A stretch of DNA of 64,000 nt from Caldinitratiruptor microaerophilus (GTDB lineage: Bacteria > Bacillota > Sulfobacillia > Symbiobacteriales > ZC4RG38), in contig NZ_AP025628.1 in NCBI RefSeq assembly GCF_025999835.1, forward strand, positions 1,984,001 to 2,048,000, given 5' to 3'. The stretch's first letter is position 1; each line of letters begins with the position of its first letter. The translations under genes and the position numbers were made by a program. The notes under the pieces were generated by a model. It made no database searches, was not told the DNA's origin, and saw only the letters and a list, made by a program, of their open reading frames with translations. Shown here one piece after another: positions 20,276-43,722 of the stretch.

Positions 20276-20299
20276 AGAACGAACGTGCATTCGACCGAC

Positions 20300-20397
20300 G
20301 CTTCCCTACGCTGGTATGATCCAGATCAGGTTCCGAGGGTACAGGCCCTCATCGCGGCCTGTTCTCAGCCCACGCTCCGTGGACACCCCTAGCGCCT
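20300..20397 (-). promoter_or_regulatory. TPP riboswitch
   Basis: The minus strand carries the thi-box core in order: GGGGTG, CTGAGA, ACCCTCGGAACCTGATCTGG, ATCATACCAGCGTAGGGAA. This is the conserved thiamine pyrophosphate aptamer. It lies about 120 bases upstream of thiC, with a terminator between. Confidence 0.97.
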
Positions 20398-20483
20398 GGG
20401 TATGCGGTTTGTTCAACGGAATTCTGCACGCCCGGCGTGATTCCTGCCCGTGCGGGAATTCGGTGTGGCACCCCGGAACACGT

Positions 20484-27783: not shown

Positions 27784-29415
27784 TTACAGGTAAACGGCAA
27801 GGTGCTGCCACGGTTCCGGCAGGGGAAGGGTCTCGACCAGCCGGGTGACGAGATCCGGGCCGTACTTGACCAGGAAGTACACGACGTTCGCGTGCCGCTC
27901 CTGGAGCCGGCCGTGGGGCGCGAGGTGGGCGGACAGGCGGTCCAGCTGCCGCAGGTCGACCTCGCAGCGCTTGCGCAGCGCCTGCGCCGCCTTCTCCTGC
28001 AGGCGGTCGAGCTGGAACGCGATCTGCCGGCGGTTCTCGGCCGCCACCTGACGCAGTGACGGATCGAGCTGAACGAGGGTCTCCACCAGCGCGTCGTACT
28101 GGCGGTAGAACCCCTCGCGAAGCTCGCCGAACCGCACGCCGAGACCGATGCGGTCTTCCCGGTCCAGGACCTCCCGCCGCTTGGCCTCCAGTCCCCCGAA
28201 CACGTCCCGGGGGCCGATCCCCTGCTTCTCCAGGTAGCGGGCCAGGGCCGGCTCCACCAGCGTGACCGACGTCCGGGGGTACACGGGCGGCAGTTCCCGG
28301 CCGAAGACACGGAAGACCTCACGCAGGACACCCATGTACTGGATCTCGCCGGGGCCGCCGACGTACGCGAGGTCGGGCAGGAGGAAGCCCTGGGCGACCG
28401 GGCGCGTGACCACGTTCGTGCTGAAGGCGGCCGGATCGGCCAGGGCGCGGGCGCGGAGTTCGGCCACCGTGCCGCCCACCTCCGGGCGGTCCCGGCCCCG
28501 GATCCGCTCCCCCTCCCCGACGAGGGGCACCCGCTCGCCGTCCGCGTACGCGAACAGGTTCACGGCCCCGGGTTGCCGCTCCACCGTCGGCTCGAAGCCC
28601 AGGCGCTGCCACGCGGCGAGCCCGGCCGCCAGCGCGGCGTCGACCTCCGGGTAGCGCTCGAGCGCCAGCGCGAAGAAGGGCGCCTCCAGGCGGCGCACCG
28701 AGGGCCAGAGGGGGTTGCAGAAGACAAGGGGGGTGTCCCGGAAGAGCCAGGCCATCAGCCGGGCGAACCAGTCGCCGAGGTCCGCCGCTTCCCCGGCCGC
28801 CTGCCGGAGACGGGCCAGGACGCCGGCTCGGAACTCCGTCGCAGGCAGCGCCTCTTCCAGCCGGTCCAGGAGGTCCCGGACGGCTGGCCCCGCCGGGAGA
28901 TGCCCCACGGAGACCCGCCGGGGAGGCTGGCCGTCGAGCACGAGGCGGGTCCAGCCGTCGCCGGCGGGGAACTCCACCGGGGCGATCTCCTGGAAGTCGT
29001 GGTCCTCGCTTCCCACCCAGAACACCGGGACCACGGGCACCCCGAGGTCGTCTTCCTGACGCCGCGCCAGGTGGATGGCGGTCACGGCCTTGTAGATGGT
29101 GTAGAGCGGGCCCGTACACGCGCCCGGCTGCTGGCCGGTCACCACCGCCACGGCTCCGGGCTCGGCCAGCCGCCGCGCGGCGGCCAGCGCCGCCTGCCCC
29201 GCACCGATGCGGGCGTTCTCCGCCACGAGAGCGCGGGCCAGGGCGGCCCGGTCGGCCGCATAGGTCGCGTGCAGGTAACGAAGGCGCTCCCGGAAGCTCT
29301 CCGGGCGGAACGGATGATAAGGAAAGCGCTCCAGCACCGGCCCCTGCCCCGCCACGTACTGGCGGACGGCAGGGGCCGGGCCGAGCGCGACGCCGGGCAC
29401 CGGTTCGACTCGCAT
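27784..29415 (-). CDS. bshC: Bacillithiol biosynthesis cysteine-adding enzyme BshC
   Basis: BshC adds cysteine to glucosamine-malate in the last step of bacillithiol synthesis. The ATG at 29415 has GAGGA eight bases upstream; the 543-residue length is typical. Family features include the N-terminal region, VVTGQQPGACTGPLYTIYKA with the nucleotide-binding-like GQQ loop, FWVGSEDHDFQEI and GGPGEIQYMG, and a C-terminal long coiled coil (about 430-500). The gene is 14 bases downstream of selD in the same orientation. A second bacillithiol-linked gene (YpdA/Bdr type) is at about 50 kb. Confidence 0.95.
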   Translation of the reverse strand: MRVEPVPGVALGPAPAVRQYVAGQGPVLERFPYHPFRPESFRERLRYLHATYAADRAALARALVAENARIGAGQAALAAARRLAEPGAVAVVTGQQPGACTGPLYTIYKAVTAIHLARRQEDDLGVPVVPVFWVGSEDHDFQEIAPVEFPAGDGWTRLVLDGQPPRRVSVGHLPAGPAVRDLLDRLEEALPATEFRAGVLARLRQAAGEAADLGDWFARLMAWLFRDTPLVFCNPLWPSVRRLEAPFFALALERYPEVDAALAAGLAAWQRLGFEPTVERQPGAVNLFAYADGERVPLVGEGERIRGRDRPEVGGTVAELRARALADPAAFSTNVVTRPVAQGFLLPDLAYVGGPGEIQYMGVLREVFRVFGRELPPVYPRTSVTLVEPALARYLEKQGIGPRDVFGGLEAKRREVLDREDRIGLGVRFGELREGFYRQYDALVETLVQLDPSLRQVAAENRRQIAFQLDRLQEKAAQALRKRCEVDLRQLDRLSAHLAPHGRLQERHANVVYFLVKYGPDLVTRLVETLPLPEPWQHLAVYL

Positions 29416-29429
29416 GTACGTGCTCCTCG

Positions 29430-30482
29430 TCACGGCAGGACCTGGATGATGCCGGGGTGCTCCTCGGTGCACTCGCCGATGATCGCCGGCGCCGGAGCCC
29501 CGGCCTCCCGGAGGGCCGCCACCAGATCGCCGGCCCGGTGAGGCGCGATCGGGATCAGGAGCCCGCCGGAGGTCATGGCGTCGCAGAGGAGCGTTCGGAT
29601 GGGTTCCTCGAGGGCATCGTCGTAGATGACCTTGTCCTCGAGCCACTTCCGGTTGTTCCGGCTGCCGGCGGGGAACACGTCCTGGCGGGCGTACTTCTCC
29701 GCCCCCGGCAGGAGGGGAACCCGGCCGGCGTGAATCCGCATGCCGACTCCGCTGGCGCGGGCCATCTCGGAGGCGTGGCCGAGGAGGCCGAACCCCGTCA
29801 CGTCGGTCATCCCGCGGACCTCGAAGGCCAGGACGGTGTCCACCAGGTTGTTGAGGGTCGTCATGACCCGGATCGCTTCGGCGATCTCGGCCGGTTCGGC
29901 GAGTCCCCGCTTGATCGCCGTGTTCACCGTCCCGGTGCCGATGGGCTTGGTCAGCACCAGCTTGTCGCCCGGCCGGGCGCCGCCCTTCGTGCAGACGCAG
30001 GTGGGGTCGATCAGCCCCACGACGGCCATCCCGTACTTGGGCTCGGCGTCGTCGACGGAGTGGCCGCCCAGGATGATCACGCCGGCCTCCCGGGCCTTGT
30101 CGGCCCCGCCCCGGAGGATGTCCGCCAGCCACTCTCCCGGGAGCTTGCCGACCGGGTAGCCCACCAGGTTCAGGGCGACGACAGGCCGGCCGCCCATCGC
30201 GTAAATGTCCGACAGCGCGTTCGCCGCGGCGATCTGGCCGAAGGCGTACGGATCGTCGACGATCGGGGTGAAGTAGTCGACCGTCAGCACCAGCGCCAGG
30301 TCGTCGGTCAGCCGGTAGACCGCGGCGTCGTCGGGGTTGTCGAGGCCGACGATGACCTCCGCCGACGGCACCATCTGGGGCAAGTAGCGCAGAACCTGCG
30401 CCAGATCGGCAGGGCCGATCTTGCACCCTCAGCCGGCCTTGCTGGTCGTCTGGGTGAGGCGGATGCGCTCGCCCTCGGTCAC
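29430..30482 (-). CDS. selD: Selenophosphate synthase SelD with predicted selenocysteine
   Basis: SelD makes selenophosphate from selenide and ATP. A GTG at 30482, preceded by GGGGAGGTG, opens a frame that contains TGA at 30431-30429 and continues unbroken for the rest of the gene, 350 residues in all. The N-terminus is IRLTQTTSKAG-U-GCKIG, aligning Sec18 with the catalytic Cys/Sec and Lys21 with the essential Lys of known SelD proteins. A hairpin follows the TGA. Later motifs VDYFTPIVDDPYAFG, GHSV, GTGTVNTAIKRG and DVTGFGLLGHA are complete. A truncated start at TTG 30383 would lose the catalytic residue. It sits five bases after selA. Confidence 0.93.
30403..30431 (-). promoter_or_regulatory. 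Putative bacterial SECIS hairpin at the selD UGA codon
   Basis: Seven bases after the TGA (30431-30429), AGATCGGC (30421-30414) pairs perfectly with GCCGATCT (30410-30403) around a 3-base loop CCT. The loop lies about 16-18 bases from the UGA, where SelB-binding hairpins usually sit. The loop sequence lacks the G seen in the E. coli fdhF SECIS. Confidence 0.65.
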
Positions 30483-30487
30483 CGCTG

Positions 30488-31912
30488 TCACCTCCCCTGC
30501 CCGGCGGCACGGGCCACGGCCGCGGCCACCAGGGGGATCTCGTCCGGCCAGAGCGTGCGCGGGTCGAGGAGGACCTCGCCCCGCTGGACCCGGGCCAGGA
30601 CGGGCGGTTCGTGGGCCCGGAGCCCGGCCTCGACCTCGTGGGCCGGCCGGCCGGTGGGCTCCACGGCCACCAGCACGGTGGGGATCTCCACGCCCGGCAG
30701 CGATCCGCCGCCGACGGCCGAGAAGCCCTCGGCCAGGCGCACCCGGACGGCGTCACCGGCCTCCTGGCGGATGCGCGCCGCCAGGGCCTCGGCGACCGGC
30801 TGCAGGTCCTCCGGCCGCAGGGCGAGCATGCGCAGGATCGGGATCCGGGCGGCGGCCCGGTCGGGCTCGAGGTAGAGCCGGAGCGTCGCCTCGATCCCGG
30901 CGAGGGTCAGCTTGTCGACCCGCAGGGCCCGGGTGAGCGGGTGGCGCCGGCAGCGGTCGACCAGGGAGCGCCGCCCCACGATGAAGCCGCCCTGCGGGCC
31001 GCCCAGGAGCTTGTCGCCGGAGAACGTGACGAGGTCGGCGCCGGCGGCCAGGAGCTCGGGCATCGTGACCTCCGGCTCCAGGCCGAGCCGGCGGAGGTCG
31101 AGCATCACCCCGGAGCCCCAGTCGACCAGGAGCGGCAACCCGTGGCGGTGGGCCAGGGCGGCAAGGTCCGCCAGGGGCGGCGCCTCGGTGAAGCCGATCA
31201 CCCGGAAGTTCGACTGGTGCACCTTGAGGATGGCGGCGGTCTCGGGCCGGAGGGCGTTCTCGTAGTCGCGCAGGTGGGTCTTGTTCGTGGTCCCCACCTC
31301 GACCAGGCGCGCCCCCCCCTGCACCATCACGTCCGGGACCCGGAACGAGCCGCCGATCTCGACCAGCTCGCCCCGGGAGACGATGACCTCCCGGTCCCGG
31401 CACAGGGCACTCAGCATCAGGAGCACCGCCCCGGCGCCGTTGTTGACCACCATGGCGGCCTCGGCGCCGGTCAGGCGGCACAGCAGTTCCTCCACGTGCG
31501 CGTAGCGGCTGCCCCGCTCGCCCGTGGCCAGGTCGAGCTCCAGGTTGTTGTACCGACCGGCCACCCGGACGATCGCCTCGATGGCTTCCTCGGCCAGGGG
31601 GGACCGGCCCAGGTTCGTGTGCAGCACCACGCCCGTCGCGTTGACGACGTGCCGCAGCCGCGGGCGCAGCCGGCGCTGCAGGTGCCGCTCGGCACGGCGC
31701 GCCAGCGCCTCGGGGCTGAGGTCCACGGCCTGCGCCGCCGCCTCGTCGGGCGCAGCCGCGATCTCCGCCCGGACCGCCGCCAGGACCTCACCCACGGCCT
31801 CGGTCACGAGTTCCCGGTCGTGCGCCCGGAGGAGGGCCTGCGCCGCCTCAGCGGACAGGATCTCGTTCACCGGGGGGATCTCCCGCAGCCGCTTCTGCTG
31901 CCATTCCTGCAA
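30488..31912 (-). CDS. selA: L-seryl-tRNA(Sec) selenium transferase SelA
   Basis: SelA converts seryl-tRNA-Sec to selenocysteyl-tRNA-Sec using selenophosphate. TTG 31912 is preceded by GGAGGGG; the 474-residue size is normal. An N-terminal tRNA-binding domain (about 1-80; LREIPPVNEIL) is followed by the fold-type I PLP domain with NATGVVLHTNLGRSPL, NNLELDLATGERGSR, NNGAGAVLL and the PLP lysine in TFSGDKLLGGPQGG (about 300). It is upstream of selD and bshC. The leader has a TATAAT and a strong hairpin. selB is not seen in the window. Confidence 0.96.
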   Translation of the reverse strand: MQEWQQKRLREIPPVNEILSAEAAQALLRAHDRELVTEAVGEVLAAVRAEIAAAPDEAAAQAVDLSPEALARRAERHLQRRLRPRLRHVVNATGVVLHTNLGRSPLAEEAIEAIVRVAGRYNNLELDLATGERGSRYAHVEELLCRLTGAEAAMVVNNGAGAVLLMLSALCRDREVIVSRGELVEIGGSFRVPDVMVQGGARLVEVGTTNKTHLRDYENALRPETAAILKVHQSNFRVIGFTEAPPLADLAALAHRHGLPLLVDWGSGVMLDLRRLGLEPEVTMPELLAAGADLVTFSGDKLLGGPQGGFIVGRRSLVDRCRRHPLTRALRVDKLTLAGIEATLRLYLEPDRAAARIPILRMLALRPEDLQPVAEALAARIRQEAGDAVRVRLAEGFSAVGGGSLPGVEIPTVLVAVEPTGRPAHEVEAGLRAHEPPVLARVQRGEVLLDPRTLWPDEIPLVAAAVARAAGQGR

Positions 31913-43623: not shown

Positions 43624-43722
43624 TGGCGGGAGCATGTGGGAATCGAACCCACCCAGCGCAGGATCACTGCGCCGCAGACGGTTTTGAAGACCGCGAGGGC
43701 CACCAGGACCCCATCTGCTCCC
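43624..43722 (-). tRNA. selC: tRNA-Sec (anticodon TCA)
   Basis: A 99-base minus-strand tRNA with the selenocysteine architecture: acceptor GGGAGCAG with 3' CATGCTCCC, anticodon loop CTTCAAA (anticodon TCA) on stem GCGGT/ACCGT, a long variable arm (GCGGCGCAGTGATCCTGCGC), T arm with GGGTTCGATTCCC, discriminator G and encoded CCA. It decodes UGA, fitting the predicted UGA in selD. Confidence 0.96.

Follow-up and report, generated by a model that had tools for sequence, protein, structure and literature searches.

A selD gene with UGA at its catalytic codon, and a second UGA-containing selD, in Caldinitratiruptor microaerophilus

Introduction

That SelD can itself be a selenoprotein is established (PMC4561486, PMC1794560, PMC13188914), and the SelD proteins of Symbiobacterium thermophilum, Moorella thermoacetica and Clostridioides difficile have been listed as such (PMC1794560). 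Genomes with two selD genes are also on record: Photobacterium profundum carries one encoding a selenocysteine (Sec) form and one encoding a Cys form (PMC1273633). Sec-containing SelD having long been known, the core finding reported here is an ordinary one, and the parts with some novelty are the paralogy of selD, the gene neighbourhood of the second copy (SelD2) and a SECIS element of changing position.

The gene under study lies in a window of 64,000 nucleotides, the whole stretch of DNA analyzed here. We conclude, with a probability of roughly 0.96, that it is a functional selD whose UGA is decoded as Sec; the codon, alignment, machinery and conserved hairpin were computed, and from them we infer recoding, catalysis and feedback.

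Results and Discussion

The selD1 Reading Frame

The reading frame and its neighbours comprise the following features.

29430..30482, minus strand: selD (SelD1) coding sequence, 351 codons including the stop, GTG start, one in-frame UGA
30429..30431, minus strand: TGA, predicted Sec codon, aligned with the catalytic Cys17 of E. coli SelD (from frame and alignment)
30491..30497, minus strand: Shine-Dalgarno GGGGAGG of selD, within the 3' end of selA (read from the sequence)
30381..30383, minus strand: TTG, first standard start past the UGA and start of the shortened mechanical ORF
30488..31912, minus strand: selA, encoding L-seryl-tRNA(Sec) selenium transferase (595 bits against TIGR00474; start as in the mechanical ORF list)
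27784..29415, minus strand: bshC, downstream neighbour of selD (TIGR03998, 494 bits)

The selA gene stops at a TGA (30490-30488, minus strand), followed after five bases by the GTG at 30482-30480, which lies 8 nt from the Shine-Dalgarno sequence GGGGAGG (30497-30491), just as the original prediction of an upstream GTG with a good ribosome-binding site had placed it; a second in-frame GTG (30491-30489) overlaps the edge of the same Shine-Dalgarno sequence. From GTG 30482 the frame reads VTEGERIRLTQTTSKAG-U-GCKIGPADLAQVLRYLP and ends at the stop 29432-29430, with the TGA 17 codons past the GTG in the context SKAG-U-GCKIGP. The full frame matches TIGR00476 over profile positions 1-309 with 382.8 bits (cut-off 125), which places it in the SelD family. 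Re-reading of the sequence and alignment of the full frame with known SelD (E. coli structure 3u0o) agree that the TGA at 30431-30429 occupies the position where other SelD proteins have catalytic Cys or Sec, as had been claimed: U21 and K24 of SelD1 align with Cys17 and Lys20, respectively. Cys17 and Lys20 are the catalytic residues of E. coli SelD. The gene order selA-selD-bshC is kept in a sister family (f2) and, bshC being a gene of bacillithiol synthesis, may reflect a link between thiol and selenium metabolism.

The first ATG, GTG or TTG after the TGA is the TTG at 30383-30381, which opens a mechanical ORF of 317 amino acids (29430-30383), so that a simple gene caller would, as foreseen, report a SelD that has lost its active site. 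The same ORF is the basis of a rival explanation, in which UGA is a stop and the TTG-started product is either a SelD lacking the active-site loop or the remnant of a decaying gene. This ORF does exist and scores 347.4 bits against TIGR00476, beginning at profile position 35, but the protein region before the TTG is conserved throughout the class and in E. coli SelD, there is no apparent Shine-Dalgarno sequence upstream of TTG 30383, the coding GC3 pattern extends upstream of the UGA, and all of the 179 genes compared have either UGA or Cys at this codon; we therefore regard truncation as very improbable. A GC3 scan of the window for UGA-interrupted genes recovered the SelD site, which a stricter setting missed, and yielded no further convincing UGA-interrupted gene in the window. 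Elsewhere in the window, a TPP riboswitch (Rfam RF00059, 72 bits) was observed on the minus strand at 20286-20400.

Conservation of the Catalytic Codon

To place the codon among relatives, 121 genomes (the window's own and its relatives) were searched with TIGR00476, which gave 99 SelD genes above cut-off in 83 genomes. The aligned catalytic codon is TGA in 97 of these genes and Cys in the other two, one copy in genome G026 and the SelD2 of G076. When loci of named organisms are added, the 179 genes divide into 73 with Cys and 106 with TGA, the latter including at least two pairs of the same sequence (L052/L137; L044/L054 look alike), which makes the independent count slightly lower. A sequencing error, with TGC or TGT as the true codon, would need only one base, but the near-universal TGA, which extends to the two same-family genomes and to the paralogue in the same genome, makes such an error exceedingly improbable; a base-calling error, which the original prediction had named as the way it could fail, is for practical purposes refuted by the related genomes. 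Gene calling that treats UGA only as a stop drops the SelD active site in almost every Sec-using genome of the class. In families f38 and f45 the motif is CAG-U-AAKKAP (L184-L194), an active-site loop lacking the second Cys, like that of structure 2yye.

Decoding Machinery

The genome, 3.6 Mb in one contig, encodes selA in single copy directly upstream of selD1, and selB in single copy at about 251714-253684, beside a thioredoxin reductase-like gene. The tRNA lies in the window.

43624..43722, minus strand: tRNA-Sec, anticodon TCA

The tRNA-Sec gene is about 12 kb away from selA-selD, and selB is far off in the genome. Those other matches to the tRNA-Sec model that were examined proved to be tRNA-Cys and tRNA-Ser (ARAGORN). 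With respect to the criteria for bacterial selenoproteins, SelA, SelB and tRNA-Sec are thus all found in the genome, and homologues have Cys where this gene has its in-frame UGA. Genome-wide reassignment of UGA, to Trp for instance, or readthrough by a near-cognate tRNA would likewise keep the frame open, with a residue other than Sec; however, TGA terminates selA and selD themselves, a tRNA-Sec with a UCA anticodon is present together with selA and selB, and the aligned residue elsewhere is Cys and never Trp, which leaves this explanation less probable still than truncation.

A SECIS Hairpin Downstream of the UGA

Two hairpins are predicted in the RNA that follows the UGA.

30385..30403, minus strand: predicted bacterial SECIS hairpin UGGCGCAG-GUU-CUGCGCUA, 8 bp, 33 nt after the UGA, -10.6 kcal/mol
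30403..30421, minus strand: first hairpin AGAUCGGC-CCU-GCCGAUCU, between the UGA and the SECIS

The published bSECIS model asks for a loop of 3-9 nt with G in its first two positions, a stem of 4-16 bp, a distance of 16-37 nt from the UGA and an energy of at most -7.5 kcal/mol (PMC13188914). A scan with this model, one of the checks proposed for the original prediction, found that the window RNA downstream of the UGA fits it through the hairpin with the GUU loop, whose triloop begins G-U; no counterpart of the bulged U that is classical in the E. coli SECIS was identified in this element. The first hairpin (30421-30403) was rejected as the window's SECIS since its CCU loop lacks a G and fails the model, although its equivalent satisfies the model in other genomes and reads GGUCC-NNN-GGACC in many relatives.

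The model is satisfied by 98 of the 106 UGA-type genes versus six of the 73 Cys-type genes, and among genes coding an L-x-Q-V-L segment the 7-bp stem is complete in 41/50 UGA-type versus 0/57 Cys-type genes; hairpins were scored on contiguous stems only, and the counts depend on that rule. Across 48 distinct rows, 95.2% of cells are paired (29-58% in controls with slid partners), and pair changes on both sides occur in 20 cells versus 3.1 expected, a value that none of 500 shuffles reached. Some of the stem compensations accompany a changed amino acid, as in AQVLC with GCACAAGUCUUGUGC and AQVLS with GCUCAAGUUUUGAGC. Similarly, when the 51 bases after the UGA are compared with synonymous shuffles that follow the codon usage of the gene itself, the mean z is -1.31 for UGA-type and +0.07 for Cys-type genes, with folding p <= 0.05 in 35% and 4%, respectively; neither kind of shuffle removes relatedness, and the Cys-type rows serve as the control. 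The Cys-type controls are mostly Bacilli of lower GC, a difference controlled in part by the own-codon shuffles and by the 19 Cys-type genes with GC >= 60%, of which one satisfies the model.

The distance of the SECIS loop from the UGA is mainly 17, 20, 27 or 33 nt, depending on the branch, and a number of SelD genes have hairpins at both 17 and 33 nt; the element has apparently shifted position within the SelD family. Four main distances within one protein family offer a natural data set on the spacing tolerance of SelB.

Autogenous Synthesis and Use of Selenophosphate

Collectively, selA, selB and tRNA-Sec, the conserved TGA and the SECIS support the claim that the UGA is read as Sec. In the mechanism we propose, ribosomes would start at GTG 30482, SelB carrying Sec-tRNA(Sec) would bind the hairpin at 30403-30385, and Sec would be inserted at the UGA in place of termination. 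The Sec would then serve selenide, water dikinase as its active-site nucleophile in the synthesis of selenophosphate, and SelA from the same operon would turn selenophosphate into Sec-tRNA(Sec), so that the output of SelD would feed the synthesis of SelD. The original prediction that SelD is autogenous, requiring Sec for its own synthesis, is in this way supported, and it extends to SelD2, which is also of the UGA type.

Three further UGA-type genes were located by targeted searches, and the set of selenoproteins so obtained is incomplete.

G000:C1 near 1571340, 2300477 and 2141760: loci L224, L223 and L225, two formate dehydrogenases and a peroxiredoxin, UGA type

The formate dehydrogenases have UGA at canonical Sec sites (EHHARI-U-HSSTVPGL and EHQARI-U-HSSTVAGL), as does the peroxiredoxin (DDTPG-U-TREA), whose assignment rests on PF00578, its short reading having no NCBIfam match. 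SelD is therefore not the sole selenoprotein of this genome. In the L224 formate dehydrogenase the UGA is followed by CCCGGUCUGGGC, with a GGUCU loop like that of E. coli fdhF. A TGA in a third molybdopterin match (1617566) falls outside the formate dehydrogenase Sec motif and was not counted.

No tRNA selenouridine synthase (MnmH) scored above cut-off in any of the 121 genomes, this one included, and no YqeB did so in this genome. Of the known uses of selenophosphate, Sec-tRNA is consequently the only one found in this genome, and the autogenous loop is strict on the consumer side too.

A Second UGA-Type selD

In addition to the window copy, the genome contains a second complete selD.

G000:C1:1648211-1649131 (locus L020:8200-9255): SelD2, with in-frame UGA and SECIS

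SelD2 is 52% identical to the window copy and has TGA at the same codon (SPGSG-U-ACKIG), with a SECIS of -12.9 kcal/mol that has a GUC loop at a distance of 33 nt; it is very probably made by the same UGA recoding. The original prediction had named, as evidence that would count against it, a TTG-started product together with a second complete selD. The second gene exists, but as it carries a UGA and a SECIS itself, the autogenous loop is unbroken and there is no UGA-free route. It is unlikely, for the same reason, that the presence of another complete selD renders the window copy dispensable and hence not truly autogenous: with UGA at the catalytic codon of both copies, either SelD needs Sec for its synthesis.

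In a FastTree phylogeny, 15 genes from 14 genomes in eight families make up the SelD2 clade (local SH-like support 99). The two related genomes of the same family and the five of the same order lack it, a distribution suggestive of transfer inside the class. At least two selD genes occur in 15 of the 83 genomes (three in G106), and in 13 of these all copies are UGA-type; most are draft assemblies, in which contamination can inflate the count, while the window's own genome is a single contig. We found no description of two or three UGA-type selD genes in one bacterial genome within the limited literature searched. The 13 genomes hold natural duplicates in which the cost and benefit of autogenous Sec might be weighed, and the clade keeps Sec across many families, though a switch to Cys in one of the copies might have been anticipated. 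In G076 (L156, G076:C132), a Cys-type SelD2 inside the UGA-type clade is devoid of the SECIS hairpin; its UGA-type sisters in family f38 have SECIS elements of -11.6 to -14.2 kcal/mol, and a UGA-type selD is also present elsewhere in G076. In G075 (L180/L202), SelD2 is the only selD found, which suggests that it can support the pathway alone, unless another copy lies in an assembly gap.

Gene Neighbourhood of SelD2

A LysR gene directly adjoins SelD2 in 14 of 15 loci, and DsrE-family genes, one of them weakly YedF-like, are near it in about 10 of 15. Seven SelD2 loci have a cysteine desulfurase of the NifS type that also resembles, less strongly, the selenocysteine lyase SclA, and seven have a flavoprotein whose best NCBIfam match, below cut-off, is the selenoprotein subtype of type III sulfide:quinone reductase; the families were assigned from representatives of every cluster. 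Of these recurring partners, only LysR and DsrE, the latter with two genes, are present at the SelD2 locus of this genome. A small methyltransferase recurs at the loci of relatives (L199-L212). Downstream of SelD2 in this genome are genes resembling those of a sensor kinase and a response regulator, then one for a molybdoenzyme of the DMSO-reductase family, and about 10 kb away (L020:18882-18966) a c-di-GMP-I-GGC riboswitch overlaps the end of an EAL-domain-like ORF.

The MnmH and YqeB searches of the 121 genomes gave no link between SelD2 and selenouridine or selenium-dependent molybdenum hydroxylases; YqeB passes its cut-off in 11 genomes, and SelD2 occurs in just two of them, G041 and G070. 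The SelD2 module may release and activate selenium under LysR control. Tentatively, and at slightly less than even odds, two Sec-dependent SelD isozymes could operate in parallel, a housekeeping SelD1 encoded in one operon with selA and a SelD2 that is regulated and belongs to a module for mobilising selenium; the composition of that module, which we put forward just as guardedly, might be LysR and DsrE, joined in relatives by the NifS/selenocysteine-lyase-like enzyme and the type III sulfide:quinone-reductase-like flavoprotein. Should SelD2 respond to the level of selenium or to selenium from a different source, it would represent a distinct selenium-assimilation system.

Comparison with Known Systems

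The window copy shares with Sec-containing SelD/SPS2 the UGA at the catalytic position, a SECIS inside the coding sequence and a full SelD family match, and there is no essential difference between them; the window's SECIS loop lies at 33 nt, and those of relatives at 17, 20, 27 or 33 nt. Its protein family is also that of the E. coli Cys-SelD (3u0o), of which Lys20 and the second Cys, Cys19, are conserved and Cys17 is replaced by the predicted Sec. Like P. profundum, this genome has two complete selD genes and a Sec-type copy in the company of selenocysteine genes, which in P. profundum are selA-selB; there, however, the second selD is Cys-type and beside ybbB (selenouridine), whereas here both are UGA-type and SelD2 is beside LysR. 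The SelD2 loci, with their LysR, DsrE and NifS/selenocysteine-lyase-like genes, resemble the described LysR_Se/YedF/selenocysteine-lyase neighbourhoods (PMC5322559), from which they differ in that the SelD2 LysR reaches 204.4 bits against the selenium LysR model NF040786 (cut-off 250), and we accordingly claim no membership of that family for it.
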